64,000 bases of DNA from Rhizobium subbaraonis (GTDB lineage Bacteria > Pseudomonadota > Alphaproteobacteria > Rhizobiales > Rhizobiaceae): the NCBI RefSeq assembly GCF_900220975.1, contig NZ_OBQD01000007.1, forward strand, positions 186,001 to 250,000, read 5' to 3'. Of this stretch, positions 3,792-23,441 are shown one piece after another. Made by a program: the position numbers and the translations under genes. Position 1 is the stretch's first letter. The number at the start of each line of letters is the position of its first letter. The notes beneath the pieces were generated by a model. It worked only from the letters and a program-made list of their open reading frames with translations, did not search any database and was not told the DNA's origin.

Positions 3792-5453
3792 TCACCCCAC
3801 CGCAACATGCCCGATCCCCTTCGCGGCAATCTCGTCGAGCGCTTCCTCATACCCCGCATCCGCATACCGGATCACCCCCAGCGCCGTGTCGTTGGTCAGC
3901 GCATGCTCCAGCCGCTCCGCCGCGGCCTCGGTTCCATCCGCCACAACCGTGACCCCGCAGCTCGTCATATAGCCGGCATAGCCGCCACCGCCGGAGTGGA
4001 CGGCGACGAGGTCAGCCATCGAGGAGGAGAGCAGCATGGCGTCGAGCAGCGGCCAGTCGGCGATCGCGTCCGAGCCGTCCTTCATCCGCTCCGTCATGAT
4101 GTTCGGATGCGCCATGGCGCCGGCGTCGAGATGGTCGCGCGAAAAGGCGACCGGGCCGTTCAGTTCGCCGGCGGCGACCAGCCGGTTGACCGCCAGCGCC
4201 AGCGCCGTCCGCTCGCCGTGGCCGAGCCAGGCGATCCGCGCCGGCAGGCCCTCGAAGGGGATGTTTTCGCGCGCCAGCCGGATCCAGTTGGTGACGATGC
4301 GGTTTTCGGCAAACATGTCGAGCACGAGATCGTCGATGCGGGCGATATCGCCTTCCTCGCCTGACAGCGCCATCCAGCGGAACGGCCCGATGGCGCGGGC
4401 AAACAGCGGCCGCAGATAGGCCTCGGTGAAGATCGGGATGTCGAAGGCATTGGCGACGCCGCCCTCCCGCGCCTGGGTACGGATCAGGTTGCCGTTGTCG
4501 AACACCTCCGCGCCCTTTTTCTGGAATTCGAGCATGGCGCCGACATGCTCGACGATCGAAGCGCGGCTGGCCGCCATCAACTGGCCCTGCCCGTCCTCGC
4601 GCAGCGATTTCACCTCCGCGAGCCCCATGCCCTTGGGCACATAGCCGTAGACGAGGTCATGCGCCGAGGTCTGGTCGGTGACGATGTCGGGCACGATGCC
4701 GCGCCTGGCGATCTCGGGGTAGACCTCCGCCGCATTGCCGACGAGGCCGATCGAGGTCGCGCGCTTGTCCTTGACCGCCGCGTCGATCATGGCAAGGGCC
4801 GCATCGAGGTCGGGGGCGACGTGTTCCAGATAGCCGATGCCTTTACGCTTTTCCGCCCGCTCCGCGTCGATGTCGACGCAGAGGATCGCAGCCCCCGCCA
4901 TGCGGCCGGCGAGCGGCTGCGCCCCGCCCATGCCACCAAGCCCTGCCGTCAGGATGAACCGGCCGGCGAGCGAGCCGGAAAAACGCTTCTCGGCGATCCG
5001 CATGAAGATCTCGTAGGTGCCCTGGATCACGCCCTGGCTGCCGATATACTGCCAGGCGCCCGCCGTCAGCCCGCCCCAGCAGATCAGCCCTTTTCGCTGC
5101 AGCTCGTAGAACACCTCCGCCTTCGCCCACTGGCCGACGATGTTGCAGTTGGCCATGATCACGAGCGGCGCCTTGGCATGGGTCTGCAGCAGCCCCACCG
5201 GCTTGCCGGACTGGACCAGGAGCGTCTGGTCCTCCTCCATCTCGCACAAGGCCTTGACGATCGCCCGGTGCGAGGCCCAGTTGCGCGCCGCCTTGCCGAG
5301 TGCTGCATAGACCACGAGGTTGTCGGGATCCTCGCCGACGCAGAGCACGTTCTCCAGCAGCCGCAGCAGCCCCTCCTGCCGCCAGCCCTTCGCGCGCAGC
5401 ACCGGGCCGCCGGGGATCGGGAAATTCGGATGGCGGGGATTGGGTTTCGGCAT
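3792..5453 (-). CDS. Urocanate hydratase (HutU) family protein, probable (S-methyl-)thiourocanate hydratase
   Basis: The 553-residue product aligns over full length with urocanases: the FPIPGGPVLRAKGW opening, TAGLGGMGGAQPLAG in the NAD-binding domain, VTDQTSAHDLVYGYVP, and SGGGGYAGYM near the end. The start at 5453 has GGAGA seven bases upstream. In classic urocanase the signature ends PARICW and that Cys is needed for catalysis; here it reads PARIAW, with Ala encoded at 4230-4232. No HutI, HutF or HutG gene is nearby. The neighbours are a DUF917 protein, a carbamoylase, a hydantoinase and a MIO-less lyase. I infer hydration of a thio- or S-methylthio-urocanate rather than urocanate. Automated annotation would call it urocanate hydratase. 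Confidence 0.85.
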   Translation of the reverse strand: MPKPNPRHPNFPIPGGPVLRAKGWRQEGLLRLLENVLCVGEDPDNLVVYAALGKAARNWASHRAIVKALCEMEEDQTLLVQSGKPVGLLQTHAKAPLVIMANCNIVGQWAKAEVFYELQRKGLICWGGLTAGAWQYIGSQGVIQGTYEIFMRIAEKRFSGSLAGRFILTAGLGGMGGAQPLAGRMAGAAILCVDIDAERAEKRKGIGYLEHVAPDLDAALAMIDAAVKDKRATSIGLVGNAAEVYPEIARRGIVPDIVTDQTSAHDLVYGYVPKGMGLAEVKSLREDGQGQLMAASRASIVEHVGAMLEFQKKGAEVFDNGNLIRTQAREGGVANAFDIPIFTEAYLRPLFARAIGPFRWMALSGEEGDIARIDDLVLDMFAENRIVTNWIRLARENIPFEGLPARIAWLGHGERTALALAVNRLVAAGELNGPVAFSRDHLDAGAMAHPNIMTERMKDGSDAIADWPLLDAMLLSSSMADLVAVHSGGGGYAGYMTSCGVTVVADGTEAAAERLEHALTNDTALGVIRYADAGYEEALDEIAAKGIGHVAVG

Positions 5454-5878
5454 GATGGTCTCCGGTTCGGTTGCCTCAGTTTGGCCGCGAAGGCAGCGCG
5501 CACTCCCTCTTCTCCCCCCGGGGAGACGGTGGCCCGAAGGGCCGGATGCGGGGGCTGCGGCGCCCATATCGTTTCATGCATTCAAAATTTCTCGACACAT
5601 CGCGTCGTTTCACCGCGCCCCTCATCTGCCCTATCGGGCAACTCGCCCTCAAGGAGGGTTGATCCCGCGGCAGCGGCAGCGTCTCCGTCCCCTCTCCTCG
5701 CCCGCGGGGAGAGGGGCAGGGTGAGGGGCTGCAACGTCTGCAGTGTCCACGACACTGAACGTCGGGTCCCAGCATCAGCCCTCGAGGCAGGGCCGGTTGG
5801 CGCGGCCCCTCATCCGCCTGCCGGCATCTTCTCCCCGCTCGCGGGGAGAAGGACGATTGCCGCGCCGACCCTCCCCCT
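5454..5878. repeat. Cluster of palindromic intergenic repeats (mosaic elements)
   Basis: No gene is seen in these 425 bases. They hold at least three palindromic units. One is around 5505-5560 (TCTCCCCCCGGGGAGA with a following GGCCCGAAGGGCC hairpin). One is around 5685-5735 (CCCCTCTCC ... GGGGAGAGGGG). One is at 5807-5852 (CTCATCCGCCTGCCGGCA then CTTCTCCCC/GGGGAGAAG). The last unit recurs near 17112, 18863 and, inverted, 19041. Such elements resemble the RIME-like and related palindromic repeats of rhizobial genomes. They separate the urocanase-like gene from the DUF917 gene and could attenuate or stabilise the transcript. Confidence 0.7.
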
Positions 5879-6982
5879 TCAAGGAGAGGATAAAGAGCCG
5901 AGCGCATACCGCGCGATCTCGATCCCCATCGCCTTCTCCACCGGCGGATACACGCTCGGGTCGAGCACGCTCGATGCCAGCGGGATGACCGCCTTCGGCA
6001 CGTGCAGCACGAAAACCCGCATGCCGACCTCCAATTGCCCGACGCTCAGCGGCTCGCCCTCCGGCGACAGCGTGGTGATCACGTCGGGAAAGGTGGCAAG
6101 CCGCACGCCGCCCGCCTGCTCCACCGCCATGTACTCGTTCATCACATGCAGGTGGACTGCGTCATCGCCCCTGCCGAGCGTCACCGTGCCGATGTCGAAG
6201 GCCTCCTTGGTATAGACCACCGCCTTCTCCGAAATCGTGCCCTCGGCGAGGATCGACCCGCCGGTGGTCCTGACGATCGCATCGATGACTGCGGATGCCC
6301 CCCGCGCCTCGGCCGCAAGGATCGCCTCGCCGAGCGCAAGCGCCAGCGAGATGCCGCCGAGGGCTGCGTTGGCCCGCACGTAGGAAGCGCGCAGCGGGTT
6401 GCGGCAGGAGGCGATGAAGCCGCCGGACTGGTCGGCGGCCGTCCGCAGCACCGGCGAGACCTTCGCCGTCGCCCCCCGCACGACGAGCTCGATGTAACGG
6501 TCCTCGGCACGGTTGCCGCCGGCAGCGGTCTGGATCATCGGTTCGGGCGAACCGGCCATGCCGATCGAGCCCATGTCGCCGGTCGGGTGCGCGCGCATGT
6601 CGCCTACCGCATCCAGCACCTTGGTGCCGAGGATCGCCGACGGCAGCCAGCCGTTGAGCGTCGAGGACTTGCCGTTCTGTCCGACCATCAGCGCCGTGAC
6701 TTTCTCGCCCAGCGCCTCCTGCAGCAGTTGCACGGCGCGCACGTAATCGACGCCGCGCATCTCCCAGGGCGTGGTCGAGGCCGGCGCCCCGATGGCGGCT
6801 GCCGTCGCCACCCAGTCGTCGTCGGAAAGCTCGTCGATCGTCACCAGCTCAGGTCTTCCGATCGACACGGCGGCGTGGCCGAGCATGCGGCCATGGTCGG
6901 CCCAGCCGCCGCCGCCGGCGGCATAGACCGAGCCGCCGCGCACAGCCGCCTCGACGTCTTTTTCCTTTAAAATCCGCCCCAT
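5879..6982 (-). CDS. DUF917 family protein, probable (S-methyl) thiohydantoin desulfurase
   Basis: The 367-residue product is a full-length DUF917 protein: a GSVYAAGGGGWADHG loop near the N-terminus, an internal GDMGSIGMAG block, and the C-terminal beta-rich half with FPDVITTLSPEGEPLSVGQLEVG. From memory, this Pfam family has been renamed for S-methyl-thiohydantoin desulfurase, an enzyme of S-methyl-ergothioneine breakdown that removes the sulfur substituent as methanethiol to give a hydantoin. The ATG at 6980-6982 has GGAGG upstream and overlaps the stop of the carbamoylase gene as ATGA, so the two are translationally coupled. A urocanase-like gene follows after a repeat cluster. The substrate is inferred from context. 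Confidence 0.78.
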   Translation of the reverse strand: MGRILKEKDVEAAVRGGSVYAAGGGGWADHGRMLGHAAVSIGRPELVTIDELSDDDWVATAAAIGAPASTTPWEMRGVDYVRAVQLLQEALGEKVTALMVGQNGKSSTLNGWLPSAILGTKVLDAVGDMRAHPTGDMGSIGMAGSPEPMIQTAAGGNRAEDRYIELVVRGATAKVSPVLRTAADQSGGFIASCRNPLRASYVRANAALGGISLALALGEAILAAEARGASAVIDAIVRTTGGSILAEGTISEKAVVYTKEAFDIGTVTLGRGDDAVHLHVMNEYMAVEQAGGVRLATFPDVITTLSPEGEPLSVGQLEVGMRVFVLHVPKAVIPLASSVLDPSVYPPVEKAMGIEIARYALGSLSSP

Positions 6983-8262
6983 CAGCGCCCCTCCTGATTC
7001 AATGTCTGAAGGCCGTGATCCAGTTGAATCACTGCATGAAGAAGGACGGACGCACCCAGCGCGATGTCGTCGTTCTCGGCAAACTCCTCCGGCGCATGGC
7101 TGCGCCCGCCGCGGCAGGGCACGAAGATCATTGCCGAACGTGTCACCCGCGCCATCCAGGCGGTGTCATGACCGGCACCGGAGACCATGCGGCGATGGCT
7201 GGCGCCGACCGCGCTGCACGCCTCATCCAGCACCTTGACCAGCATCGCATCCGAAGGCGTCGGCGGATTGTCGGAGATGCGGCGCGGCGTCGATATCGCC
7301 GTCCCCGTCTCGCGGGCGATCTGCTCGGCCATCTGGTCGAGCGAATTGACGAAGAGCTCCATCATCGCCCGCTCCTCGGCCCGCGCGTCGATCAGCAGCC
7401 GGGCGCGCGAGGGCACCACGTTGGCCGCATTCGGCTCGATCGAAAATTCGCCGACGGTGGCAGTGAAATGGAACCTTCCGCCGGAAAACGACTTCGCCAG
7501 CGCCTCGACACCCGTCACCAGCCGGGCGGCGGCGGCGAGCGCATCCGCTCGGCCGCCCATCGGCGTCGTCCCCGCATGGTCCGCCCTGCCCTCCACCACG
7601 ATCTCGATGCGCGTGATGCCGGCAATTGCGGTGACGACGCCGATGTCGAACTTTTCCTCCTCCAGCACCGGCCCCTGCTCGATGTGGAGTTCGAGAAAGG
7701 TGGCGATATCGCCCCTCGCCTCGCCGGCGAGGCGCAATGGATCGCCGCCCGCCTGGCGGATTCCTTCGGCGAGCGTCAGCCCGCCGCTTTCCCGCGCAAG
7801 CCAGTCCTCCGGCAGCACGCCGGCCATGCCGCGGCTGCCGATGCAGGAGACGCCGAAGATGGAGACTTCCTCGGCGAGGAAGTCGACGATTTCAAGGTCA
7901 TGGTCCAGTTCGGTGCCGCGCTCGATGAGCGCCCGCGCCACCGCTAGCGCCGCGGCCACCCCGGCGATGCCGTCGAAACGGCCGCCATCGGGGACGGTGT
8001 CGGAGTGCGAGCCGAGCATGATCGTGCCGAGCCCCGGCGTCTTCCCCGGCCGCCGGCCGATCAGGTTGCCGGCCGCGTCGATGCGCGTCTCCAGCCCCGC
8101 CTCCCGGAAGCGGGCTTCCAGAAACGCACGGCCCTCCGGATGAAGCGCCGTAAACGCCCGCCGCGTATAGGGCCTGTCCGGCTCGGTGATCGCCGCGAGC
8201 CCGTCGATCACATCAGCGATCCGGGCCGGATCCACCGGCAGGTTGGTGCGCGGCGCACTCAT
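6982..8262 (-). CDS. M20 family amidase/carbamoylase, probable N-carbamoyl-glutamate amidohydrolase
   Basis: The 426-residue product belongs to the Zn-dependent allantoate amidohydrolase / N-carbamoyl-L-amino-acid hydrolase group of M20 peptidases. Visible metal-site features are GSHSDTVPDGGRFDG (His86, Asp97), FLAEE (Glu131-132), LHIEQGP (His193) and a late SGAGHDTAWMA. The start at 8262 is set by ATGA overlap with the hydantoinase stop and by GGAGG upstream. A longer upstream frame exists but lies inside the hydantoinase gene. The family cleaves the carbamoyl group of N-carbamoyl amino acids, releasing ammonia and carbon dioxide. In this operon the logical substrate is N-carbamoyl-L-glutamate made by the hydantoinase, giving glutamate. 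Allantoate is the alternative. Confidence 0.85.
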   Translation of the reverse strand: MSAPRTNLPVDPARIADVIDGLAAITEPDRPYTRRAFTALHPEGRAFLEARFREAGLETRIDAAGNLIGRRPGKTPGLGTIMLGSHSDTVPDGGRFDGIAGVAAALAVARALIERGTELDHDLEIVDFLAEEVSIFGVSCIGSRGMAGVLPEDWLARESGGLTLAEGIRQAGGDPLRLAGEARGDIATFLELHIEQGPVLEEEKFDIGVVTAIAGITRIEIVVEGRADHAGTTPMGGRADALAAAARLVTGVEALAKSFSGGRFHFTATVGEFSIEPNAANVVPSRARLLIDARAEERAMMELFVNSLDQMAEQIARETGTAISTPRRISDNPPTPSDAMLVKVLDEACSAVGASHRRMVSGAGHDTAWMARVTRSAMIFVPCRGGRSHAPEEFAENDDIALGASVLLHAVIQLDHGLQTLNQEGR

Positions 8263-9641
8263 CGCCCGGCCTCCGCGACGGGGAGCGTCGCCGGCGGCCG
8301 CACGAAGGCGCCGGTGCCGGGCTCGGCCAGCACCCGCCTGCCGTCGAAGGCGAGCCGGCCGCGCAGGAAGGTTGCAGCCACCCGCCACGGCAGCCGGATG
8401 CCGTTGTAGGGCGACCAGCCGACGACGTTGTGGCCGCTCTCGGCCGCGTCGTAGGTGTAGGGCTCCGGCGTCAGCACGGTGATGTCGGCGTCCTTGCCCG
8501 GATCCAGCGCGCCCTTGACGTGGTCGAGCCGGAAGTGCCGGGCCGGGTTGCGGCTCATCAGCTCCGCCGCCCGGGTCAGCGGGATGCCGCGCTCCAAGGC
8601 GCCCTTGACGAAAAGCGGCACCATGACCTCCAGCCCGGGCACGCCGGACGCGTTGGAGAGCATGTCGGCGTTCGTCTTGCGGTCCTCCGACCAGCTGACA
8701 TGGTCGGTCGAGACCAGCGTGACGTTGCCGTCCGCCACGTGCCGCCAAAGCCTTTCCACCTCCGCCCGCGGGCGGACCGGCGGGTTGATCTTCGCCTTGC
8801 CGCCGAGGCGGCGCACATCGTTTTCCTCGTCGAGGGTCAGATAGTGGATGCAGCACTCGATGGTGGCGCGGTGGCCCTGCGCCCGGTAAGCGGCCGCGAT
8901 CTCGTAGCCGCGCCCGAGCGAGCAGTGCACCACATGCGCCGGGCAGCCGGTGGCAGCGCCCGTCTCGTAGATCTGGCAACTGGCGAGCAGTTCCGTCAGC
9001 GGCGGACGCGACAGGCCGTGCGCCCGCCAGTCGGAAATTCCAAGTGCCTTGACCTTCGCGATCGCCGCCCGCACCGCCTCGTCGTCCTCGTTGTGCACGC
9101 CGGCGGTCAGCCCGGTCGGGGCGATCGCCCGGAAGCAGTCCTCCAGCAGGGCGGCCGGGATGCGCGGAAAGCGCTTCGGATCGGTGCCGAAGGTGGAGAA
9201 CTTGAAGGCGGCGACACCCGCCTCGACCATCTCGCCGATGCGCGCCGGCCCCTCCTCGGGATCGATCGTGCCGTAGAGGGCGAAATCGACCCGGGCCTGC
9301 TTACCGGCATGCGCCACCTTGCGGGCGACCGCTTCGGCCGAGCAGACGAGATCGCCCTCGTCATAGGGCATGTCGACAATGGTGGTGACGCCGCCGGCCG
9401 CCGCCGACCGGGTCGACCAGATGAAATCCTCCTGGTTCTTCTGCGACAGCGAGTGCACCTGCGCGTCGATGGCGCCCGGCAGGATCATCGCGCCTTTGAG
9501 GTCGTGGCGCTCGCGGGCGGCCGGCATCGCGCCCTGCCCGACATGGGCGACCTTGCCGTCGCGGATGGCCACATGTCCGCCCTCGACGATGCGGTCGGGC
9601 AGCACCACCGTGCCCTTCACCACCAGATCGAAATCGGCCAT
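8259..9641 (-). CDS. Hydantoinase/allantoinase-type amidohydrolase
   Basis: The 460-residue product is a cyclic amidohydrolase of the dihydroorotase-allantoinase-hydantoinase family. It keeps the metal-site residues Lys147 (AAFKFS, the carboxylated lysine), His183, His239 (VVHCSLG) and Asp313 (STDHVSW). The usual first His of the N-terminal HxH motif is Gln: the segment reads IDAQVHS (Asp59, Gln61, His63). Some allantoinase-like enzymes tolerate this. It would open a hydantoin ring to an N-carbamoyl amino acid, which the downstream coupled M20 enzyme can then hydrolyse. In this operon the expected substrate is hydantoin-5-propionate. It starts 21 bp after the lyase gene stop. Confidence 0.85.
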   Translation of the reverse strand: MADFDLVVKGTVVLPDRIVEGGHVAIRDGKVAHVGQGAMPAARERHDLKGAMILPGAIDAQVHSLSQKNQEDFIWSTRSAAAGGVTTIVDMPYDEGDLVCSAEAVARKVAHAGKQARVDFALYGTIDPEEGPARIGEMVEAGVAAFKFSTFGTDPKRFPRIPAALLEDCFRAIAPTGLTAGVHNEDDEAVRAAIAKVKALGISDWRAHGLSRPPLTELLASCQIYETGAATGCPAHVVHCSLGRGYEIAAAYRAQGHRATIECCIHYLTLDEENDVRRLGGKAKINPPVRPRAEVERLWRHVADGNVTLVSTDHVSWSEDRKTNADMLSNASGVPGLEVMVPLFVKGALERGIPLTRAAELMSRNPARHFRLDHVKGALDPGKDADITVLTPEPYTYDAAESGHNVVGWSPYNGIRLPWRVAATFLRGRLAFDGRRVLAEPGTGAFVRPPATLPVAEAGR

Positions 9642-9662
9642 CGGCGTTTCCTCCTCCCGACG

Positions 9663-11198
9663 TTAGTTCAGTGCGAAGAACGCGTCGAAATCGTCCATCG
9701 GGGCTGCCGCCACGAAGGAGGCAAGTGCATCCGGGCAGGCGAGGTCGCGGTCCAGCGCCTCGATCTCGGCCGACATCAGCCGGTCCTTGCGGTAGAACGC
9801 CGTCACCTTCCGCACGCGCTGATAGACGACGGCGGCCACACCTTCGGGACTGTCGCTCGCAAGATCGATCGCCTGCGCCGACAGCATCCCCTCCAGCGCC
9901 GCCAGTTGGCGGAGATCCCGCACCTGGCTCTCCATACGCTCGACGATCAGCGGCAGGAAGGTCGCCTCCTCTTCCAGCCCGCCGGCAACCACGATCGACT
10001 GCGCCGAGATCGGCACCGCCAGCGACTGGATGCGCATGTAGAGCTCGACGGCGAGCTTGACCAGCGGCCCAAAGCCGGTGGCCGCCTCGCCGGGGGCGAC
10101 AAGGTTGACCGGCAGGTTGCGGCGCACCCCGTTGGAAAGCAGCACGCAGCGGTTCAGGACGTTGCGGGCGAGATGGGCGAAACCGGTCTGCGCCGCCTCG
10201 ACATAGAGCGCGGTCGACAGCGGCAGCGAGCCGCCGGACGCCATCACGTGATCGTCGAGCACGACCGGATTGTCGTCGGTCTGCGCCGTCGCCTCCACAA
10301 TGCGTTCGGCGGCGTTCATCAGCGTATCGAGGCAGGCGCCGAACACCTGCGCCGTCATGCGCAGGCTGAGCGGATCGTGGATCGCCGACGGCTTGGGCCA
10401 GGCGCAGGAGGCGGCCTGCGCCGAGAACCACCGCCCCGCCAGCGCCTCGCCATGGCCCGCAAGCCGTGCAGCCACGCGCCACGGATCGGAGGAGGCGCCG
10501 AGCGCAAGCGACGACAGGAGCCCCGTGACCATCAGGTTGCGGATCGCCTTCGCAGCCTCCCGGGTGACGTCGGCGGCCGCCGCGTGCGCGATCGCATTGA
10601 CGCTGAGGGCTGCCAGGGCATCGCGCGGCTGCATACGGAACGGTTCGAGCCCGGCACGGGCCAGCGCGACCGCCGCTGGCAGCCGTTCGCCCTCGAAATA
10701 GGCCTCGCCCTCGCCGGTGAGTACGGCCGCGACCTGCCCCATCAGGCCGATGTCGGCACAGCCCATCGAGCCGTGCCGGCGCACCACGGGAACGACGTCG
10801 CGTTCCAGCAGACCCAGGAACGCATCCACGAGCTCGGGGCTGCACCCGGAATAGCCGGACAGCGCGGTGTTGATGCGGATCGCCATCGCCTTGCGCACGA
10901 TCGGCAGCGAGAACGGCTCGCCGGTGCCGAAGTGATGCGCCCTGACCAGGTTGTGATTGAACTCCATCAGGTCGTCGACCGTCCAGAGCTTGTCCTTCAT
11001 CGAGCCGACGCCGGTGTTGGAGCCGTAGACCGGCAGGCCTGCGGCGAGCCGGTCGGCGATGATCTTGCGCGAGGCGCCGATGCGCCCCATCCCCAGCTCG
11101 CAGACGACCGGCCGGGTCGCCGCACGCCCGATCGCCTCGAGCGCGGCGAAGCCGAGCGGTTCTCCGGTCAGATAGAAGGTCTCGGCGCTCGCCAGCAT
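9663..11198 (-). CDS. Aromatic amino acid lyase (HAL/PAL) family protein lacking MIO, probable ergothionase-type lyase
   Basis: The 511-residue product has the length and fold pattern of histidine/phenylalanine ammonia-lyases. It keeps the loop with the catalytic tyrosine (VYGSNTGVGS, Tyr58), NAIAHAAAA, and a late DNPVV segment. Where active family members carry GSxGASGDLAP, whose Ala-Ser-Gly cyclises to the MIO electrophile, this protein reads GSMGCADIGLMG (Cys147-Ala148-Asp149, codons 10752-10760), so MIO cannot form in the usual way. That fits elimination of trimethylamine, a good leaving group, from a histidine betaine such as ergothioneine. It is the first gene of the minus-strand operon and is divergent from a LysR gene. 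HutH would be the automated name. Confidence 0.82.
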   Translation of the reverse strand: MLASAETFYLTGEPLGFAALEAIGRAATRPVVCELGMGRIGASRKIIADRLAAGLPVYGSNTGVGSMKDKLWTVDDLMEFNHNLVRAHHFGTGEPFSLPIVRKAMAIRINTALSGYSGCSPELVDAFLGLLERDVVPVVRRHGSMGCADIGLMGQVAAVLTGEGEAYFEGERLPAAVALARAGLEPFRMQPRDALAALSVNAIAHAAAADVTREAAKAIRNLMVTGLLSSLALGASSDPWRVAARLAGHGEALAGRWFSAQAASCAWPKPSAIHDPLSLRMTAQVFGACLDTLMNAAERIVEATAQTDDNPVVLDDHVMASGGSLPLSTALYVEAAQTGFAHLARNVLNRCVLLSNGVRRNLPVNLVAPGEAATGFGPLVKLAVELYMRIQSLAVPISAQSIVVAGGLEEEATFLPLIVERMESQVRDLRQLAALEGMLSAQAIDLASDSPEGVAAVVYQRVRKVTAFYRKDRLMSAEIEALDRDLACPDALASFVAAAPMDDFDAFFALN

Positions 11199-11241
11199 GG
11201 TCGTTCCTCTGTTCGACCAACTCTATGCAAGACGGAGAAAT

Positions 11242-11261
11242 CGGATATATCCCAATATCCG
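11242..11261. promoter_or_regulatory. Inverted repeat in divergent promoter region
   Basis: The arms CGGATAT (11242-11248) and ATATCCG (11255-11261) form a 7-bp inverted repeat with a 6-bp spacer, in the short region between the lyase operon and the divergent LysR-type gene. Position and symmetry suit a LysR-family operator. This is a candidate only. Confidence 0.45.
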
Positions 11262-11314
11262 TACAGTAGATGCCGCAAACCGAACAAAGGCGGGCAGCAC
11301 CAGGGATTGACCGC

Positions 11315-12610
11315 ATGGATCTCGCCACACTCTGCCTCGTCGAGACCATCTTGCGCACCGGCAGCGTGCGCGCGGCGGCCAGGCTCGAAGGCCGGCCAGC
11401 CTCCAGCGCCAGTGCGGCGCTGCGGCGCCTGGAAGCGGCGATCTCCATACCGCTTGTCCGCCGCGAGGGACCGGTGCTGGTGCCGACGCTCGAAGCCCAG
11501 GCACGCGTGGAGCGGCTTGCCGAGATGGCCAGGGCGGCGAGGGAACTGCTTCGCATCGCTCCTGCGGGAAACGGATACCCACCCGCGGCGCGCGCCGGGA
11601 CGTGCAGTTGGCCCGAGGCTGCGCCGCCGCCGCCGCACCGGTCCGCGCCGCCGATGCCGCAGATCCCTCTGGAGTCGCTCGCCCGCTTCTGCGCCACGGT
11701 CTATGCCGGCAGTATCCGCAGCGCCGCACGGACGCTGAAGCTCGGTCAGCCGCAGTTGACCCGGCAGCTCGTCCGGCTGGAACAGGCCGTCGGCCTTCCC
11801 CTGCTCCACCGCTCGCCCGGCGGCGTCGCCTGCACGCCGGAAGGCGTCGCGGCGCTTGCGATCGCAGAACGCATCGGCAGCATCTGGGCAGGCCTGTCGC
11901 AGGCCTCCGACGAACGCTTCCGCAAGACAGCCCACACCTGGCGGCTTGGCTCCGTCATCCCGTTCGGTCACGAAAGCGACATCGCCCGGATGCTGGCGGG
12001 CCTTGCCGCTGAATGGCGGCGCCAACGTCCGCGCCAACCCCTCTTCATCGCCTCGACCACCGCCGATGAACTGATCTTTGGCCTGCAGTCCCGCCGGTTC
12101 GACCTCGCGCTCCTGGATATCGATCGCTACCCGGCCGAGTTCGAAGGCGCGCTCGTCAGCCGCCAGCCGCTGGCCCTTGCCGTGCCGAGGTCGTTGGCCC
12201 TGGGTCGCAAAGGCACGCAGGAGGACGCCACCGAGTTGCTGCAGAAGCACCCGATCGCCATGCCGAGCGTCCGGAGCGGCCTGCGACAGATGACCGACCG
12301 CTATATCGCAAACACCCTTTCCGCCAGCGAGAGGGCAAGACTGACGCTGGTGGAGGTGGATTCCATCCCGGTCATCATCAATCTGGTGCGCGAGCACGGC
12401 CATCTGTCGATCCTGCCCGAACAGTCGGTCTCGCGCATTGCCGATTCGCCGGCGTTGATCCGCCTCGACGCCCGCTTCCAGCAGTCGCTCAGCCTGGTCT
12501 GGCCGAGGAACGCCGTGTCTCGGCAGACCGCGGCAGCTGTCCTGGAGATCATCTCCGCCCCCGCTAACGAATACTCCACGCCCTCGACCGGCGGGGGCGC
12601 GGCGACATAG
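11315..12610 (+). CDS. LysR-type regulator with two tandem N-terminal HTH domains
   Basis: The protein begins with a LysR-like winged helix (about residues 2-60 from this start: LATLCLVETILRTGSVRAAAR ... ALRRLE). A Pro/Ala-rich linker follows, then a second complete LysR HTH (about 120-175: FCATVYAGSIRSAARTLKL ... LTRQLVRLEQ) and a normal effector-binding domain (about 190-420). One HTH is the rule for this family. The ATG at 11315 is preferred because it places the first HTH at the N-terminus and leaves the 11242-11261 inverted repeat in the promoter. An ATG at 11270 is in frame but lacks a ribosome site. Divergent orientation suggests it controls the ergothioneine-like operon. Confidence 0.82.
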   Translation: MDLATLCLVETILRTGSVRAAARLEGRPASSASAALRRLEAAISIPLVRREGPVLVPTLEAQARVERLAEMARAARELLRIAPAGNGYPPAARAGTCSWPEAAPPPPHRSAPPMPQIPLESLARFCATVYAGSIRSAARTLKLGQPQLTRQLVRLEQAVGLPLLHRSPGGVACTPEGVAALAIAERIGSIWAGLSQASDERFRKTAHTWRLGSVIPFGHESDIARMLAGLAAEWRRQRPRQPLFIASTTADELIFGLQSRRFDLALLDIDRYPAEFEGALVSRQPLALAVPRSLALGRKGTQEDATELLQKHPIAMPSVRSGLRQMTDRYIANTLSASERARLTLVEVDSIPVIINLVREHGHLSILPEQSVSRIADSPALIRLDARFQQSLSLVWPRNAVSRQTAAAVLEIISAPANEYSTPSTGGGAAT

Positions 12611-15101: not shown

Positions 15102-16076
15102 TCACCCCTTCCCCGCCACCCTCAGCCTGCGCCGCGTCTCCGTCGGGCTCTCGTGGTAGTGGGCGCGGTAGCTGCGGGAAAAGGCGGATGACGAGTTGAA
15201 GCCGGTGGCGGCGGCGATGTCGGCGAATTCCAGCTTCGTCTCGATCACCTTGCGCCGTGCCGCGTTCAGCCGCAGCGCCAGGTAATGCTGGTGCGGCGCA
15301 ACCGCCATCGTCTCCTGGAACAGATCCTGCAGGTGGCGGGCGGAGATGCCGATGCGGCGGGCGAGACGGGCGAGCGTGACCGGCGCCTCCACCGTCTCCT
15401 CCATCAGCCGCACCGCCTGGCTGACGCGCTGATCGGCCACGCGCATGTTGCCGAGCGCGGGCACCTGCAACAACCCGCCGGTCCGCTCATGCTCGTAGAT
15501 AAAGAGGCGTGACACCTCGAGCGCCAGCGAATAGCCCTGACGCCTGCGGATGATCTCCAGCATCAGGTCGAGCGTCGGCAGCGAGCCGCCGCTGGTCATG
15601 CGCTTGCCGTCGATCACGTAGCGCTCGGTCAGAACGTTGACCTGCGGGTAGGCGGCGGCGAAGTCCTCGCGATCCTCCCAGTGGATCGTCACTGAATGAC
15701 CGTCCAACAGGCTCGCCTGCGCCAGCAGCCAGCTGCCCGATTCGATCCCCGCCATCATGCTGCGGTGACGCGCGGTGCGCGACAATTGCCGCCGCAGCGC
15801 CGGCGTGGCGCTCTCCTGCCACTGGTAGCTGGAAAGGAGGAACAGCGGTGCGGTTTCCTGTTCCGGCCGGAACGGCCCGTCGACGGGAACCGGAATGCGG
15901 CTGCGCGTCTCGATCGCCGCCCCATCGGGCGAGAAGATCTGCCAGCGGTAGAGGTCCTGTCCTGAGATCCGGTTGGCGGCGCGCAAGGGTTCGATGACGG
16001 AAGCGACGAGGATCAGGTTCGTCTCCGGCAGCACCAGAATGTCCAGGTCGAGCGTCTCCGACGACGGGTCGAGCAT
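15102..16076 (-). CDS. CdhR-like GATase1/AraC family regulator of carnitine catabolism
   Basis: The 324-residue protein has an N-terminal DJ-1/PfpI-like (GATase1) effector domain (about residues 10-190, opening LDILVLPETNLILVASVIEPLRAAN) and a C-terminal AraC DNA-binding domain (about 215-315, with FADIAAATGFNSSSAFSRSYR). This architecture is that of CdhR/GbdR/ArgR-type activators of quaternary-amine catabolism. The start at 16076 is preferred over the longer frame because GGGGAGG lies just upstream. It is divergent from the dehydrocarnitine cleavage gene, with a 116-bp shared promoter region that contains ATTCTT-N11-AAGAAT (16096-16118) as a possible site. Role in carnitine induction is inferred from family and position. 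Confidence 0.82.
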   Translation of the reverse strand: MLDPSSETLDLDILVLPETNLILVASVIEPLRAANRISGQDLYRWQIFSPDGAAIETRSRIPVPVDGPFRPEQETAPLFLLSSYQWQESATPALRRQLSRTARHRSMMAGIESGSWLLAQASLLDGHSVTIHWEDREDFAAAYPQVNVLTERYVIDGKRMTSGGSLPTLDLMLEIIRRRQGYSLALEVSRLFIYEHERTGGLLQVPALGNMRVADQRVSQAVRLMEETVEAPVTLARLARRIGISARHLQDLFQETMAVAPHQHYLALRLNAARRKVIETKLEFADIAAATGFNSSSAFSRSYRAHYHESPTETRRRLRVAGKG

Positions 16077-16192
16077 ATGGCAAAACCTCCCCACGATTCT
16101 TCCTGAAGTGTAAAGAATGGTGCCGAAATTGAAAAGCATGCGTCTTCCGCTTGGCCCGTAATGACGTCAACGAACAATCTGGGAGAAACACA

Positions 16193-17095
16193 ATGCCTCT
16201 GGCCATGAACCGCGATGTCTTCATCACCTGCGCCGTCACCGGCTCGGGCGACACTGTCGGCAAATCCAAGCACGTGCCGATCACGCCGAAGCAGATCGCA
16301 GAAGCGGCCGTCGAGGCCGCCAAGGCCGGTGCCGCCGTCATCCACTGCCATGTGCGCGATCCCGAGACCGGCGCGCCCTCGCGCCGCAACGACCTCTACA
16401 AGGAAGTGACAGACCGCATCCGCCAGGCCGAGGTCGACATCGTCTTGAACCTCACCGCCGGCATGGGCGGCGACATGATCTTCGGCGACGTCGAAAGGCC
16501 GCTGCCGCTGAAGGAACAGGGCACTGACATGGCCGGCGCCACCGAGCGCGTCTCCCACGTCGCCGAATGCCTGCCCGAAATCTGCACGCTCGACTGCGGC
16601 ACGATGAACTTCTCGCTCGGCGACTACGTCATGACCAATACGCCATCGATGCTGCGCGCCATGGCGAAGCAGATGACCGACCTCGGCGTGCGCCCCGAGA
16701 TCGAGGCCTTCGACACCGGCCACCTGTGGTTCGCCAAGCAGCTTGTCGAGGAAGGCCTGATCGAGGACCCGGTGCTGATCCAGCTCTGCATGGGCATCCC
16801 ATGGGGCGCGCCGGACGACCTCAACACCTACATGGCGATGGTCAACAACGTACCTGACAACTGGACCTTCTCGGCGTTTTCGATCGGCCGCAACGCCATG
16901 GCCTACCCGGCCGCGGCCGTGCTCGCCGGCGGCAACGTCCGCGTCGGGCTTGAGGACAACCTGTACATCGGCAAGGGCCAGCTCGCCACCAACGCCCAGC
17001 TCGTAGAGAAGGCGGTCAACGTCATCGAGAACATGGGCGCGCGCGTCATCGGCCCGGCCGAGGTGCGCGAGAAATTGAAGCTGACGAAGCGGTAA
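16193..17095 (+). CDS. BKACE family 3-dehydrocarnitine cleavage enzyme
   Basis: The 300-residue product is a beta-keto acid cleavage enzyme (DUF849 family). It shows the opening FITCAVTGSGDT, the metal-site HCHVRDPETG motif, the SLDCGTMNF-like segment (TLDCGTMNFSLGDY), EAFDTGHL, and GGNVRVGLEDN near the end. With acetyl-CoA the family splits a beta-keto acid. Next to carnitine dehydrogenase the substrate should be 3-dehydrocarnitine, giving betainyl-CoA and acetoacetate. The start at 16193 follows GGGAGA; the longer in-frame ATG at 16151 has no such site. It is the first gene of a plus-strand catabolic run. Equivalent to CdhC of Pseudomonas in role. Confidence 0.87.
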   Translation: MPLAMNRDVFITCAVTGSGDTVGKSKHVPITPKQIAEAAVEAAKAGAAVIHCHVRDPETGAPSRRNDLYKEVTDRIRQAEVDIVLNLTAGMGGDMIFGDVERPLPLKEQGTDMAGATERVSHVAECLPEICTLDCGTMNFSLGDYVMTNTPSMLRAMAKQMTDLGVRPEIEAFDTGHLWFAKQLVEEGLIEDPVLIQLCMGIPWGAPDDLNTYMAMVNNVPDNWTFSAFSIGRNAMAYPAAAVLAGGNVRVGLEDNLYIGKGQLATNAQLVEKAVNVIENMGARVIGPAEVREKLKLTKR

Positions 17096-17105
17096 AAATA
17101 TCCGG

Positions 17106-17262
17106 AGGGCCTGCCCGTCATCCGCCTGCCGGCACCTTTTCCCCGCGAAAGGGGAGAAGGGACAGTTGGCCCGCCCCTGCTTCTCGATCGAAGTGAGCGG
17201 TTGCGGCGACAGCAGCAGCGTCCCCTCTCCCCGCCTGCGGGGAGAGGGTCAAACTGAGGGGC
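17106..17262. repeat. Composite palindromic intergenic repeat
   Basis: The gap between the cleavage enzyme and carnitine dehydrogenase holds two linked palindromic units. One is at 17112-17160 (CATCCGCCTGCCGGCACC, then TTTTCCCC/GGGGAGAA). The other is around 17217-17262 (CCCCTCTCCCCGCC, then GGGGAGAGGG and a short GAGGGGCA tail). Both resemble units at 5689-5735 and 5807-5852. They lie inside the presumed operon and may set the relative expression of the two genes. Confidence 0.65.
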
Positions 17263-17318
17263 AAGCTTCTCCAGCGCGAAGACATCAGCACAACAACAGA
17301 CACCACGGGAACGACCAC

Positions 17319-18809
17319 ATGACCAAGATCAACAAGGCAGCCTGCATCGGCGGCGGCGTCATCGGCGGGGCCTGGGCGGCGCGGTTCGCGCTCGCCGGCA
17401 TCGACGTCAGCATCTACGATCCGCATCCGGAGGCTGAGCGCATCATCGGCGAAGTCATGGCCAATGCCGAGCGCGCCTACGGCATGCTGACCATGGCGCC
17501 GCTGCCGCCGAAGGGAAAGCTGACCTTCGTCAAGAGCATCGAGGAAGCCGTGCGAGGCGCTGACTGGATTCAGGAAAGCGTGCCCGAGCGGGTCGACCTG
17601 AAGCGCGGCGTCATCACCCAGATCGACGCTGCCGCGAGCCCTACGGCACTGATCGGCTCGTCGACGTCCGGCATCATGCCGACCGACCTGCAGCGCGACA
17701 TGAAGCATCCCGAGCGCATGTTCGTCGCCCACCCCTACAACCCCGTATACCTGCTGCCGCTCGCCGAACTCGTCGGCGGCGAGAAGACGGCGCGCGCGAC
17801 GCTGGAAGACGCGAAGGCCAAGCTCGCCACCATCGGCATGAAGGGCGTGATCATCAACAAGGAGATCGAGGCCTTCGTCGGCGACCGCCTGCTGGAGGCC
17901 GTCTGGCGCGAAGGCCTGTGGCTGATCAAGGACGACATCTGCGACACCGAGACCCTCGACGATGTGATCCGCTATTCGTTCGGCATGCGCTGGGCGCAGA
18001 TGGGCATGTTCGAGACCTACCGCATCGCCGGCGGCGAGGCCGGCATGCGCCACTTCATCGCCCAGTTCGGCCCCTGCCTGTCCTGGCCCTGGACCAAGCT
18101 CACAGACGTCGTCGACCTCACCGACGAACTGGTCGACAAGATCGCCAACCAGTCCGACGCCCAGTCCGGCGCTCGCGGCATCCGTGAACTGGAGCGCATC
18201 CGCGACCAGAACCTCGTCGGCATCATGCATGCGCTGAAGGCCGGCGACGACGGCCGCGGCTGGGGTGCCGGCAAGCTTCTGACCGAGTTCGAGGACTATC
18301 TCTGGGCCAATGCCAAGAAGCCGGAGGTCGACCTCGGCGAGGTCAAGCCGCTGAAGATCCTCGACACCAAGGTCAGCGCCGCCTGGGTCGACTATAACGG
18401 CCACATGACCGAGCACCGCTACCTGCAGGTTTTCGGCGACACCTCCGACGGCGTGCTGCGCCTGATCGGCGTCGATCTCGAATATGTCCGCGACGGCCAC
18501 AGCTACTACACGGTCGAGACCCACATCCGCCACCTCGGCGAGGCCAAGCTCGGCGACGCGCTCTACACCACCTGCCAGATCCTGTCCTCGGACGAAAAGC
18601 GCCTGCAGTTCTTCTCGACCATCTGCAATGCGCAGACCAACGAGCCTGTCGCCACCGCCGAGCAGCTGATGCTGCATGTGGACTCGAAGGCCGGCAAGGC
18701 GGTCGCCGCACCCGCGCATGTGCTGGACAAGGTGAAGGCGCTGACCGAGGCCCATGCGCGGCTGCCGATGCCCGAGGGTGCCGGCCGGCATGTGGGGCAG
18801 AAGCGCTGA
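17319..18809 (+). CDS. Fused L-carnitine 3-dehydrogenase and betainyl-CoA thioesterase
   Basis: The 496-residue product joins two enzymes. Residues about 5-325 form a 3-hydroxyacyl-CoA-dehydrogenase-type oxidoreductase with the NAD loop IGGGVIGGAW (residues 10-19) and the FVAHPYNPVYLLPL active-site block. Residues about 345-480 form a hotdog thioesterase (AAWVDYNGHMTEHRYLQVFGD). In Sinorhizobium-type bacteria this fusion oxidises L-carnitine to 3-dehydrocarnitine, and its thioesterase part releases glycine betaine from betainyl-CoA made by the BKACE enzyme. In other bacteria the two parts are separate genes (CdhA, CdhB). The start at 17319 has a GGGA site; upstream in-frame codons lie in the repeat. 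Confidence 0.88.
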   Translation: MTKINKAACIGGGVIGGAWAARFALAGIDVSIYDPHPEAERIIGEVMANAERAYGMLTMAPLPPKGKLTFVKSIEEAVRGADWIQESVPERVDLKRGVITQIDAAASPTALIGSSTSGIMPTDLQRDMKHPERMFVAHPYNPVYLLPLAELVGGEKTARATLEDAKAKLATIGMKGVIINKEIEAFVGDRLLEAVWREGLWLIKDDICDTETLDDVIRYSFGMRWAQMGMFETYRIAGGEAGMRHFIAQFGPCLSWPWTKLTDVVDLTDELVDKIANQSDAQSGARGIRELERIRDQNLVGIMHALKAGDDGRGWGAGKLLTEFEDYLWANAKKPEVDLGEVKPLKILDTKVSAAWVDYNGHMTEHRYLQVFGDTSDGVLRLIGVDLEYVRDGHSYYTVETHIRHLGEAKLGDALYTTCQILSSDEKRLQFFSTICNAQTNEPVATAEQLMLHVDSKAGKAVAAPAHVLDKVKALTEAHARLPMPEGAGRHVGQKR

Positions 18810-19128
18810 CGCGTTCTCCCTCCCCTTTGTGGGGAGGGTGGCCGCAGCACCGGGAGGGGACTGCTCCCCATCAGCCTGCCGGCACCTTCTCCCCGTGAAC
18901 GGGAGAAGGGACACGCTGCAGCCGCTAGACGCTTCGGGGGAGAACGAAGAGGCAAAAAAGTTGCATGCCGCCTGGACCGGCAAGGGCAAAGCCCGACCGG
19001 ATGGGACCAGGCGAAAGAGAACGAGGCGCCGCCGCAATTTCCTTCTCCTCGCCTGCGGGGAGAAGGTGCTGGCAGGCGGATGAGGGGCAGGCCAGCAGGC
19101 GCCCCCTCAAAACACGAGGGAGAACACA
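18810..19128. repeat. Intergenic region with three palindromic repeat units
   Basis: No gene is seen here. A CCTCCCC/GGGGAGG unit with a GGCCGCAGCACCGGGAGGGG tail lies at 18820-18858. A CATCAGCCTGCCGGCACCTTCTCC unit lies at 18863-18909. An inverted copy of the same unit (CTTCTCCTCGCC, GGGGAGAAGG, GGCAGGCGGATGAGGGGC) lies at 19041-19088. The last two are related to units at 5807 and 17112 and face each other. The ribosome site GAGGGAG before the acyl-CoA dehydrogenase ATG at 19129 closes the region. Confidence 0.65.
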
Positions 19129-20289
19129 ATGAACTTCGCACTGACGGACGAACAGCAGATGATCGTCGACACGGTCCGCTCTTTCGTCGAGACCGAGATC
19201 TATCCGCACGAGAACGAGGTCGAGCGCACCGGCTTCGTTCCGCCGGAGCTGGGCCAGGAAATCGCCCGCAAGTGTAAGGAAATCGGCTTCTTCGGCTGTA
19301 ATTTCCCGGAGGAAGTCGGCGGCGCGGGCCTCGACCACACCTCGTTCACCCTGGTCGAGCGCGAACTCGGCCGCGGCTCGATGGCGCTGACCGTCTTCTT
19401 CGGCCGCCCCTCCGGCATCCTGATGGGCTGCAACGACGAGCAGCGCGAGAAGTACCTGATTCCGGCTGTACGCGGCGACAAGTTCGACGCACTCGCCATG
19501 ACCGAGCCGGACGCAGGCTCCGACGTGCGCGGCATGAAGTGCTTCGCCAGGAAGGACGGCGACGACTGGATCGTCAACGGCACCAAGCACTTCATTTCCC
19601 ACGCCAATATCGCCGATTTCGTCATCGTCTTCATCGCGACAGGCGAGGAGCAGACGCCGCGCGGGCCGAAGAAGCTGATCACCTCGTTCCTTGTCGACCG
19701 CGGCACGCCCGGCTTCGAGATCCGCGACGGCTACAATTCGGTCTCGCATCGCGGCTACAAGAACTGCATCCTCTCCTTCGACGACTGCCGCCTGCCGTCC
19801 TCGCAGATCCTGGGCGAGGTGCACCGCGGCTTCGACCTTGCCAACGACTGGCTCTACGCCACGCGCCTGACGGTCGCCGCCACCTCCGTCGGCCGGGCGC
19901 GCCGCGTCTTCGACTACGCGCTCTCCTATGCGGCCGAGCGCAAGCAGTTCGGCAAGCCGATCGGCGCCAACCAGGGCGTTTCGTTCAAGCTCGCCGACAT
20001 GATCACCGAGATCGACGCGGCCGACCTTTTGACGCTGTCGGCCGCCTGGCGCCTCGACCAGGGCCTGCCGTCGAACCGCGAGATCGCCTCTGCCAAGGTC
20101 TATGCTACGGAGATGCTCGCGCGGGTCACCGACGAGGCGATCCAGATCTACGGCGGCATGGGCCTGATGGACGACCTGCCGCTCGCCCGCTTCTGGCGCG
20201 ACGCCCGCGTCGAGCGCATCTGGGACGGCACCTCCGAGATCCAGCGCCATATCATCAGCCGCGACCTGCTGCGGCCGCTGGGAGCGTGA
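19129..20289 (+). CDS. Acyl-CoA dehydrogenase, probable gamma-butyrobetainyl-CoA dehydrogenase
   Basis: The 386-residue flavoprotein shows the standard three-part acyl-CoA dehydrogenase layout: MTEPDAGSDV in the middle domain, KQFGKPIGANQGVSFKLADM, QIYGGMGLMDD and the late RIWDGTSEIQR block with the usual catalytic Glu region. The family makes an alpha,beta-double bond in an acyl-CoA using FAD and passes electrons to ETF. In a locus with carnitine dehydrogenase, an acyl-CoA ligase and an enoyl-CoA hydratase, the likely step is gamma-butyrobetainyl-CoA to crotonobetainyl-CoA. CaiA-like crotonobetainyl-CoA reduction in the other direction is less likely in an aerobe. The ligase gene starts 8 bp downstream, so they are co-transcribed. 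Confidence 0.85.
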   Translation: MNFALTDEQQMIVDTVRSFVETEIYPHENEVERTGFVPPELGQEIARKCKEIGFFGCNFPEEVGGAGLDHTSFTLVERELGRGSMALTVFFGRPSGILMGCNDEQREKYLIPAVRGDKFDALAMTEPDAGSDVRGMKCFARKDGDDWIVNGTKHFISHANIADFVIVFIATGEEQTPRGPKKLITSFLVDRGTPGFEIRDGYNSVSHRGYKNCILSFDDCRLPSSQILGEVHRGFDLANDWLYATRLTVAATSVGRARRVFDYALSYAAERKQFGKPIGANQGVSFKLADMITEIDAADLLTLSAAWRLDQGLPSNREIASAKVYATEMLARVTDEAIQIYGGMGLMDDLPLARFWRDARVERIWDGTSEIQRHIISRDLLRPLGA

Positions 20290-20296
20290 TCAGAAC

Positions 20297-22351: not shown

Positions 22352-22355
22352 GCCC

Positions 22356-23138
22356 ATGACCGGACCAATCCGCAAGCGCCGCGAAGGCGGCATCCTGGAA
22401 GTCACGATCGATCGCCCGAAAGCCAACGCGATCGATCTGGCGACGAGCCGCATCATGGGCGAGGTCTTCCGCGACTTCCGCGACGACCAATCCCTGCGCG
22501 TCGCGATCGTCACCGGCGCGGGCGAAAAATTCTTCTGCCCCGGCTGGGACCTGAAGGCGGCCGCCGCGGGCGACGCGGTCGACGGCGATTACGGCATTGG
22601 CGGCTTTGGCGGCATGCAGGAACTGCGCGACCTGAACAAGCCGATCATCGCCGCCGTCAATGGCATCTGTTGCGGCGGGGGGCTTGAGATCGCCCTCTCC
22701 ACCGACCTGATCCTCGCCGCCGAGCATGCCACCTTCGCCCTTCCCGAGATCCGCTCCGGCACCGTGGCGGATGCCGCCTCGATCAAACTGCCCAAGCGCA
22801 TCCCCTATCACATCGCCATGGACATGCTTCTGACCGGCCGCTGGCTGGACGCGGCCGAGGCGCACCGCTGGGGCTTCGTCAACGAGATCCTGCCGGCCGA
22901 CAAGCTGCTCGACCGCGCCTGGGAACTGGCGCGGCTCTTGGAGAGCGGCCCGCCACTGGTCTATGCTGCGATCAAGGAAGTGGTGCGCGCCGCCGAGGGC
23001 GAGACGTTCCAGACGACGATGAACAGGATCACCCGCCGCCAGTTTCCGACGGTGGACGTCCTCTATTCGAGCGAGGACCAGCTGGAAGGCGCGCGCGCCT
23101 TCGCGGAGAAGCGAGATCCGGTGTGGAAGGGCCGCTGA
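22356..23138 (+). CDS. caiD: Enoyl-CoA hydratase family, carnitinyl-CoA dehydratase (CaiD-like)
   Basis: The 260-residue crotonase has the oxyanion-hole segments GEKFFCPGWDLKAAAAG and NGICCGGGLEIALSTD, with Glu in the ALPEIRSGTVAD stretch, all typical of CaiD. CaiD interconverts crotonobetainyl-CoA and L-carnitinyl-CoA. With the preceding ligase and acyl-CoA dehydrogenase it completes a short beta-oxidation-like path from gamma-butyrobetaine to carnitine, which then enters the dehydrogenase and cleavage steps. It starts 4 bp after the ligase stop. A short GC stem with a T-run at its stop codon suggests that transcription of this block can end here. Confidence 0.82.
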   Translation: MTGPIRKRREGGILEVTIDRPKANAIDLATSRIMGEVFRDFRDDQSLRVAIVTGAGEKFFCPGWDLKAAAAGDAVDGDYGIGGFGGMQELRDLNKPIIAAVNGICCGGGLEIALSTDLILAAEHATFALPEIRSGTVADAASIKLPKRIPYHIAMDMLLTGRWLDAAEAHRWGFVNEILPADKLLDRAWELARLLESGPPLVYAAIKEVVRAAEGETFQTTMNRITRRQFPTVDVLYSSEDQLEGARAFAEKRDPVWKGR

Positions 23139-23151
23139 GCGGTTCTTTTTT
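23129..23151 (+). terminator. Candidate rho-independent terminator after the caiD-like gene
   Basis: The stem GCCGC/GCGGT surrounds the TGA stop codon and is followed by TTCTTTTTT. The stem is short (4-5 bp), so termination may be partial. Confidence 0.5.
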
Positions 23152-23441
23152 CCACATCGCCATGCCCTGAAAAACCATGCTCGCGCACGTCGCGGGCATT
23201 TGCATAAGGTGCATTTATGCACAGCGAAGGAAATTTAGGGCGTTACATTCGAGACAAATTCAGTAATCTTATCAATCAGCAAGCGGTGGGAGCCGCAAAG
23301 GGAACAAGGAGAACTTGAAGACCGACAAGGCGCCGGATGAGCGCCCCCGCACAGCCGACCGTGCGAAAATCTCCGGCGGCAGACCAGAAATTCTACCAAG
23401 CACAAGAAGGCCGGAACCGGCCGAACGAAGGGAACAGGGGA
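23139..23441. promoter_or_regulatory. Intergenic promoter region of the carnitine-locus ABC importer with dyad GTGCAT-TT-ATGCAC
   Basis: This gap separates the catabolic genes from the ABC importer genes. It contains a notably AT-rich stretch (23200-23280), the opposite of its surroundings, with an inverted repeat GTGCAT (23209-23214), TT, ATGCAC (23217-23222). An overlapping TGCATAA/TTATGCA pair lies at 23201-23207 and 23215-23221. This looks like a promoter with a regulator-binding dyad. No gene is seen. Confidence 0.5.

Follow-up and report, generated by a model that had tools for sequence, protein, structure and literature searches.

A probable ergothioneine catabolic operon in Rhizobium subbaraonis and its candidate regulator, a LysR-family protein with two winged helix-turn-helix domains

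Which compound does a bacterium break down with five clustered genes that resemble parts of the histidine and allantoin pathways? The question is raised by a locus of Rhizobium subbaraonis (assembly GCF_900220975.1; 6.58 Mb, 85 contigs), which we analyzed within a 64,000-nucleotide stretch of contig NZ_OBQD01000007.1 (positions 186,001 to 250,000), hereafter the window. The minus strand of window positions 3792-11198 carries a five-gene operon encoding, in order of transcription, a lyase of the histidine ammonia-lyase (HAL) fold, a cyclic amidohydrolase, an M20 amidase, a DUF917-fold protein and a urocanase-fold protein, and a LysR-family gene lies divergent to it. Ergothioneine is a mushroom-derived antioxidant, and we conclude that this is very probably a catabolic operon for free ergothioneine, switched by the divergent LysR, a protein with tandem winged helix-turn-helix (wHTH) domains, through an element upstream of the lyase gene. 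The chemistry and the pathway are already known, and the operon is a further member; what is new here is the LysR with two winged-helix domains together with the conserved element. The features, in window coordinates and with the likely starts, are as follows.

9663-11198, minus strand: ergothionase-type lyase (HAL fold, without the 4-methylideneimidazole-5-one (MIO) triad), 511 aa, start at 11198
8259-9641, minus strand: ErtD, putative hydantoin-5-propionate amidohydrolase, 460 aa, start at 9641
6982-8262, minus strand: ErtE, putative N-carbamyl-L-glutamate amidohydrolase (M20), 426 aa, start at 8262 by homology
5879-6982, minus strand: putative thiohydantoin desulfurase (DUF917 / S-Me-THD fold), 367 aa
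3792-5453, minus strand: putative thiourocanate hydratase (urocanase fold), 553 aa rather than 591, start at 5453 by homology
11315-12610, plus strand: LysR-family regulator with two wHTH domains, 431 aa
11247-11272, plus strand: conserved element ATATCCCAATATCCGTACAGTAGATG, proposed operator, in the divergent region

All six frames are open, as an earlier reading of the DNA from its letters alone (the sequence-only reading) had them, and the operon's Pfam domains agree with the folds it described: Lyase_aromatic, Amidohydro_1, Peptidase_M20, S-Me-THD_N/_C, which we take to equal DUF917, and three urocanase domains. Relatives of the LysR begin at the residue that corresponds to 11315, which makes this its probable start. 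The M20 gene ends on the base at which the DUF917 gene starts, and a 425-base gap (5454-5878) with GC-rich direct and inverted repeats, including 23-base copies at 5693 and 5830, separates the latter gene from the hydratase gene. Gene order is kept in all 16 loci of named relatives (L003-L018 in our numbering of loci), although in L017 the lyase is matched as two pieces inside one longer open frame. Lyase relatives with 84-97% identity come from Rhizobium rhizolycopersici, a Rhizobiales isolate, Mycoplana azooxidifex, Rhizobium sp. GN54, Rhizobium alarense and Shinella.

The enzymes and their substrate

Drawing on established pathway knowledge, we infer the following course for the reactions. 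The MIO-less lyase would eliminate trimethylamine from ergothioneine to leave thiourocanate, which the urocanase-fold hydratase would convert to thiohydantoin-5-propionate. The DUF917-fold enzyme would then swap sulfur for oxygen, with sulfide leaving, to give hydantoin-5-propionate, whose ring ErtD would open to N-carbamoyl-glutamate; ErtE would finally yield L-glutamate, CO2 and ammonia.

Four of these five enzymes pass curated ergothioneine-utilization models (NCBIfam 20.0, each with its own bit cut-off). The hydratase scores 1036.5 bits against the thiourocanate hydratase model NF058530 (cut-off 930), and the desulfurase (PF06032 and PF20906) scores 593.1 against the thiohydantoin desulfurase model NF058529 (cut-off 440). 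ErtD reaches 798.3 bits on NF058538 (cut-off 600) and 385.7 on a second ErtD model, NF058539 (cut-off 650); ErtE reaches 597.8 on NF058540 (cut-off 520), and scores higher, at 670.6, on the generic Zn-hydrolase equivalog NF009531 (cut-off 486). With the lyase nearest to ergothionase, as described next, these scores support the ergothioneine degradation that the sequence-only reading had proposed.

The best relative of the lyase in the PDB is the Treponema denticola ergothionase (6s7j/6s7q, E 7.2e-52), and its profile scores 269 bits against ergothionase, 223 against 7tqr, the best deposited ammonia-lyase, and 207 against the best chain of Pseudomonas putida HutH. Foldseek places 6s7j in all top three positions for the predicted structure (predicted local distance difference test, pLDDT, 86.7), with template modeling (TM) scores of 0.86-0.87. 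The predicted fold alone is undecisive between ergothionase and HutH because HutH follows closely at 0.84-0.85. The loop that carries MIO in the ammonia-lyases reads SMGC-ADIG, one residue shorter than GASGDL and lacking the Ala-Ser-Gly triad, just as the HAL-family lyase without MIO had been described. The same one-residue deletion, shared with 6s7j, occurs in all 39 lyases from such loci, and a full-length loop (A/S, S/C, G) in the genome's own HutH and in all 15 of the distant relatives that the genome collection supplied (L019-L033). In a tree, the HAL clade is set apart from 6s7j and the locus lyases (support 100/100; midpoint root, long 6s7j branch). By sequence and predicted fold, the lyase is thus nearest to ergothionase, and its reaction would be the formation of thiourocanate and trimethylamine.

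The idea that the lyase is unusually divergent only in the window's clade was rejected, as the protein is fast-evolving everywhere: the window lyase shares a mean 53% identity with the others and these share 57% with one another, compared with 78% in both comparisons for the hydratase. The genome also encodes a third aromatic-lyase protein (C85:15471-16844, in L105/L107), with a MIO loop three residues short (GSVGY---LAHTA) and 450 bits on the hutH model (cut-off 539); it is possibly another MIO-less lyase, and its neighbors are a PGA_cap gene, a permease gene and a reading frame that combines asparaginase with IstB_IS21 domains.

The hydratase groups in a tree with 7ned (100/99), then with 8q9u, and apart from HutU (100/100); 7ned and 8q9u have long branches and their places are unsure, and the rows L004, L015 and L025_nearHAL were left out. 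Against 7ned, it scores 804 bits over 533 residues. The sequence-only reading had named a grouping of lyase and hydratase with functional HutH and HutU as the outcome that would count against it, and both came out apart. It had also pointed to the absence of the urocanase signature Cys, which is true of the window protein (Ala) and is not diagnostic, as the position in 47 hydratases from such loci holds Ala in 39, Cys in six and Ser in two; we rejected Cys loss as a mark of thiourocanate hydratase on this count. The motif [SA]AHDLV[YH]GY is present in 47 of 47 and HSGGGGY in 46 of 47, the remaining one (L094) being cut by a contig end.

These scores also bear on the readings that compete with free ergothioneine. 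Breakdown of S-methyl-ergothioneine had been half of the earlier proposal; in the form considered here, an SBP56 protein encoded 2 kb downstream would oxidize the released methanethiol. This reading draws on the DUF917 fold, which includes S-methyl thiohydantoin desulfurase, and on the SBP56 gene itself (382-1788, same strand as the operon), which recurs in the window's own clade: it is complete, or truncated by the end of the locus, in L003, L004, L005, L018 and L078. The S-methyl models nevertheless both fail: the hydratase scores 734.7 bits on NF058531 (cut-off 880) and the desulfurase 286.9 on NF058532 (cut-off 450). Because both of these fall below cut-off while the free-thione models pass, we take free ergothioneine as the substrate. 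The hydratase, moreover, groups with 7ned and not with 8q9u (though the 8q9u branch is long), the SBP56 protein scores 102 bits on the methanethiol oxidase (MtoX) model (cut-off 650), a gene on the opposite strand stands between it and the hydratase gene, and SBP56 is unmatched in 11 Shinella loci, which end already some 3 kb beyond the hydratase gene. We therefore regard the S-methyl half of the proposal as improbable.

A misnamed second histidine (hut) operon, or a hydantoin or purine operon, would explain the HAL, urocanase, hydantoinase and M20 carbamoylase folds, and the hydratase does exceed the generic hutU cut-off (679 bits, cut-off 375). Against this stand its far higher score on its own model, the missing MIO triad, a lyase score of 222 bits on the hutH model (cut-off 539) and a complete, separate hut operon on another contig: HutF 744 (cut-off 654), HutI 431 (298), HutH 725 (539), HutG 390 (279) and HutU 970 (375). 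The allantoinase model gives 276 bits (cut-off 358). We consider this explanation very improbable, and the classic histidine pathway is as little supported as the sequence-only reading had held. Agrobacterium radiobacter is related to the window's bacterium. PMC13405746 cites Yan 2022 for an ergothionase in A. radiobacter, and the title of that work names an ergothioneine sulfonate pathway; the window operon could in principle follow the same route, although the thiohydantoin desulfurase, which is over its cut-off, would seem to have no obvious role there, and we give this reading hardly any weight.

Several observations weigh against the assignment to free ergothioneine. No curated NCBIfam model is passed by the lyase, whose 28% identity to T. 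denticola ergothionase is barely above the 27% to P. putida HutH, and the fold scores for the two are close. Of the two characterized ergothionases, those of T. denticola and of Burkholderia HME13, the comparison covered the first, and the tree builder warned that 6s7j, 7ned and 8q9u have long branches of unsure placement. A trimethylamine N-oxide demethylase over cut-off was not found, trimethylamine monooxygenase not having been searched for, and two queries with binding proteins of the OsmF type, described below, found no match in the window's genome.

Disposal of trimethylamine within the window was considered and rejected, as the MttB-family and GcvT-type oxidoreductase proteins fall below curated cut-offs; the MttB-family methyltransferase gene (55304-56950, no internal stop) gives 333 bits on the trimethylamine model (cut-off 525), and two GcvT-type oxidoreductase genes are near it (59088-63982). 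A carnitine catabolism cluster at 15102-28624 encodes a GbdR-like regulator, a BKACE-like enzyme and carnitine 3-dehydrogenase (887 bits, cut-off 592), and continues with acyl-CoA dehydrogenase-, CoA ligase- and enoyl-CoA hydratase-like proteins and an ATP-binding cassette (ABC) transporter of the peptide/nickel type. Its regulator and BKACE genes lie near the ergothioneine operon in 15 of the 16 named relatives.

The regulator and the conserved element

LysR-family proteins normally have one DNA-binding domain. In the window protein, Pfam finds HTH_1 (PF00126) twice and LysR_substrate (PF03466) once, so that it departs from the type in not having a single N-terminal wHTH and conforms to it in combining wHTH with LysR_substrate. 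The predicted structure (pLDDT 82.7, predicted TM score 0.55) has two equal wHTH units: helices 18-30, 33-40 and 44-58, a hairpin at 63-72 and a helix at 74-94 in the first, and helices 134-146, 149-156 and 160-174, a hairpin at 179-188 and a helix at 190-221 in the second. A profile comparison of the two copies gives a probability of 98.6%. Of 30 homologues encoded at such loci, 28 have a first wHTH that the profile of the second one also picks up, some of them only weakly (domain E <= 0.16); the exceptions are L069 and the partly read L074. The arrangement is not unique to this operon, a possibility that we rejected: two proteins with paired HTH_1 occur among 67 matches in the whole genome (150 of 195 candidates scored), and the second (L140:9604-10959) lies beside an unrelated cluster that looks, by eye, like a tripartite tricarboxylate transporter.

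The space between the lyase and LysR genes holds, in the window, the conserved sequence ATATCCCAATATCCGTAC. The strict pattern of the element has 27 matches in 1.01 Mb over 50 sequences; no locus has more than one, and the reversed sequence has none. In 33 of the 39 loci with a lyase, a 26-base consensus scores at least 15 of 19 in the region upstream of its gene, and the six misses score 11-13. Among 975 random control windows, 965 score 13 or less, three score 14 and seven at least 15, and some of these seven may overlap the true site. The relaxed consensus gives 42 sites of at least 15 over 0.99 Mb of loci, about seven of which are neither upstream of a lyase nor beside a LysR.

The consensus was drawn from among sequences later counted, and only the search for the regulator is an independent test. 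Of the 33 loci with the element, 28 have the LysR gene as a neighbor (L091 being cut by the locus end), and of the six without it none does. The element thus predicted a LysR elsewhere in the five genomes that have it without an adjacent LysR, and no LysR in the six that lack it. A homologue covering both wHTH domains was indeed found in each of the five (5/5, 284-298 bits), and the six have none at E 1e-30 (0/6). The five genomes belong to one genus and the six to two genera, which makes for few independent events. Three loci have a LysR homologue and no lyase: L093 has an element scoring 17/19, L069 has none, and L077 has one of 16 near the LysR 5' end and a second of 16 elsewhere, probably by chance. 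Regulator and element co-occur, and on this comparative genomics we propose that the divergent LysR controls the operon at the element, probably by binding it directly.

Distribution and importers

A thiohydantoin desulfurase over cut-off is present in 32 of 397 genomes of the window's order, presumably Hyphomicrobiales, and in six of 398 genomes across the phylum, all six from that order; both counts include the window's genome. The stretches L064-L095 lie beside the 31 other desulfurase matches and one below cut-off, and 22 of these 32 contain the lyase; L004 and L078, which stand as two rows in the locus counts, almost certainly derive from a single genome. Among the ten genomes with no lyase in the stretch, two encode a strong one at another place (823 and 777 bits) and a third encodes a diverged one (440); in the remaining seven nothing exceeds 260 bits. 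Five of these stretches (L067, L069, L077, L093 and L094) have desulfurase and hydratase and no lyase, and their genomes too have no lyase match over 260 bits; L077 also has an ABC transporter of the amino-acid type, and L067 and L069 look similar by eye. Possibly, these are users of thiourocanate, which some of the lyase-less genomes may take up directly.

Sixteen of the 22 lyase-bearing stretches from the desulfurase search carry an OsmF-type binding protein inside the operon. The other six are L078, from the window's clade, and five of one genus, which have the protein elsewhere. The in-operon protein L072:16240-17151 scores 494 bits on the OsmF glycine-betaine model (cut-off 400), and its context suggests a role for ergothioneine rather than glycine betaine. 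No such protein is present in the operon of the window or the 16 named loci, nor in the seven genomes searched from the window's clade and R. alarense (two of the seven are probably one), a search in which both positive controls were found.

In the five genomes with an unlinked regulator, the LysR gene is divergent to a gene whose OsmF-type product shares 65-66% identity with the binding protein of L072; frames for permease and ATPase come next (permease, ATPase, permease by Pfam in L149). The space between the two divergent genes holds, in 5/5, a weaker element, GGGATATC...GAACA...CATA, with a score of 14 in the same orientation and similarly placed; at least 14 is reached by 10 of the 975 random windows. 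On balance, we lean towards the view that the ergothioneine genes of the order form a regulon under a distinct LysR lineage with a duplicated wHTH. It would comprise the operon and, in some genera, also an ABC importer of the OsmF type that is unlinked to it and currently named as a glycine-betaine system. The regulator would sense ergothioneine or thiourocanate, and as a dimer it would bring four DNA-reading heads to a composite element (GGGATATC ... GAACA ... CAT). Counter to a general importer rule, the binding protein is also encoded inside the six operons that have neither element nor regulator, and no element was seen with the binding proteins of Shinella.

Two further ideas about importers were rejected. 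All 11 Shinella genomes have an OsmF-type protein with 69-71% identity, and none shows the element in the stretches covered (best 13/19), so that this may be an ordinary osmolyte importer. Nor did the element lead to the importer of the window's genome: its core pattern matches exactly at a single site of the 6.58-Mb genome, the operon's own, and the other two matches, with two mismatches, are at the level of the backwards control, which also gave two.

Comparison with known systems

PMC13405746, with Maurer 2019, Muramatsu 2013 and Yan 2022 among its references, describes ergothionase as lacking MIO and as expressed in Burkholderia on ergothioneine as the sole nitrogen source. A BLAST search reported there returned only ammonia-lyases, and the enzyme was suggested not to be widespread among gut microbes, with the caution that divergent homologues may be missed. 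The ergothionase of Burkholderia sp. HME13 was used in PMC11089744, with detection at 311 nm. Among the matches listed from the open-licence PMC literature, none concerned an ergothioneine regulator, an ert operon or a tandem-HTH LysR, and none was a characterization paper on 7ned, 8q9u or the Ert names; the available part of PMC5882156 does not mention a tandem-HTH LysR. Ergothionase is easily misread as histidine ammonia-lyase, and the present survey has 39 loci in which the gene for a MIO-less lyase neighbors those of the downstream enzymes. The regulator and element provide a sequence handle for ergothioneine-responsive genes, including importers now named glycine-betaine transporters, and the tandem-wHTH LysR is a simple test case for the use of two DNA-binding domains by one LysR protein.

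Compared with the NCBIfam ergothioneine-utilization set, the operon is alike in that 4/4 models pass within one operon and differs in that no lyase or regulator model passes and no transporter is inside. The S-methyl branch (NF058531, NF058532) has the same folds as the window enzymes, which both score below its cut-offs. T. denticola ergothionase (6s7j, 6s7q) is the best solved relative of the lyase and shares its one-residue MIO-loop deletion and the DDNP motif, but differs by its 28% identity and its separate long branch. The protein in 7ned, deposited as a urocanate hydratase and which we take to be a thiourocanate hydratase, shares the motifs SAHDLVYGY and HSGGGGYAGYM with the window hydratase and is not part of the clade that the sequences of the window's order form. 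In a profile search of the LysR, no listed PDB chain had a best stretch covering both wHTH domains. The LysR proteins with one wHTH (CbnR, BenM and OxyR) align over about 300 columns with the second wHTH and the effector domain, and the window LysR differs from them in its extra N-terminal wHTH.

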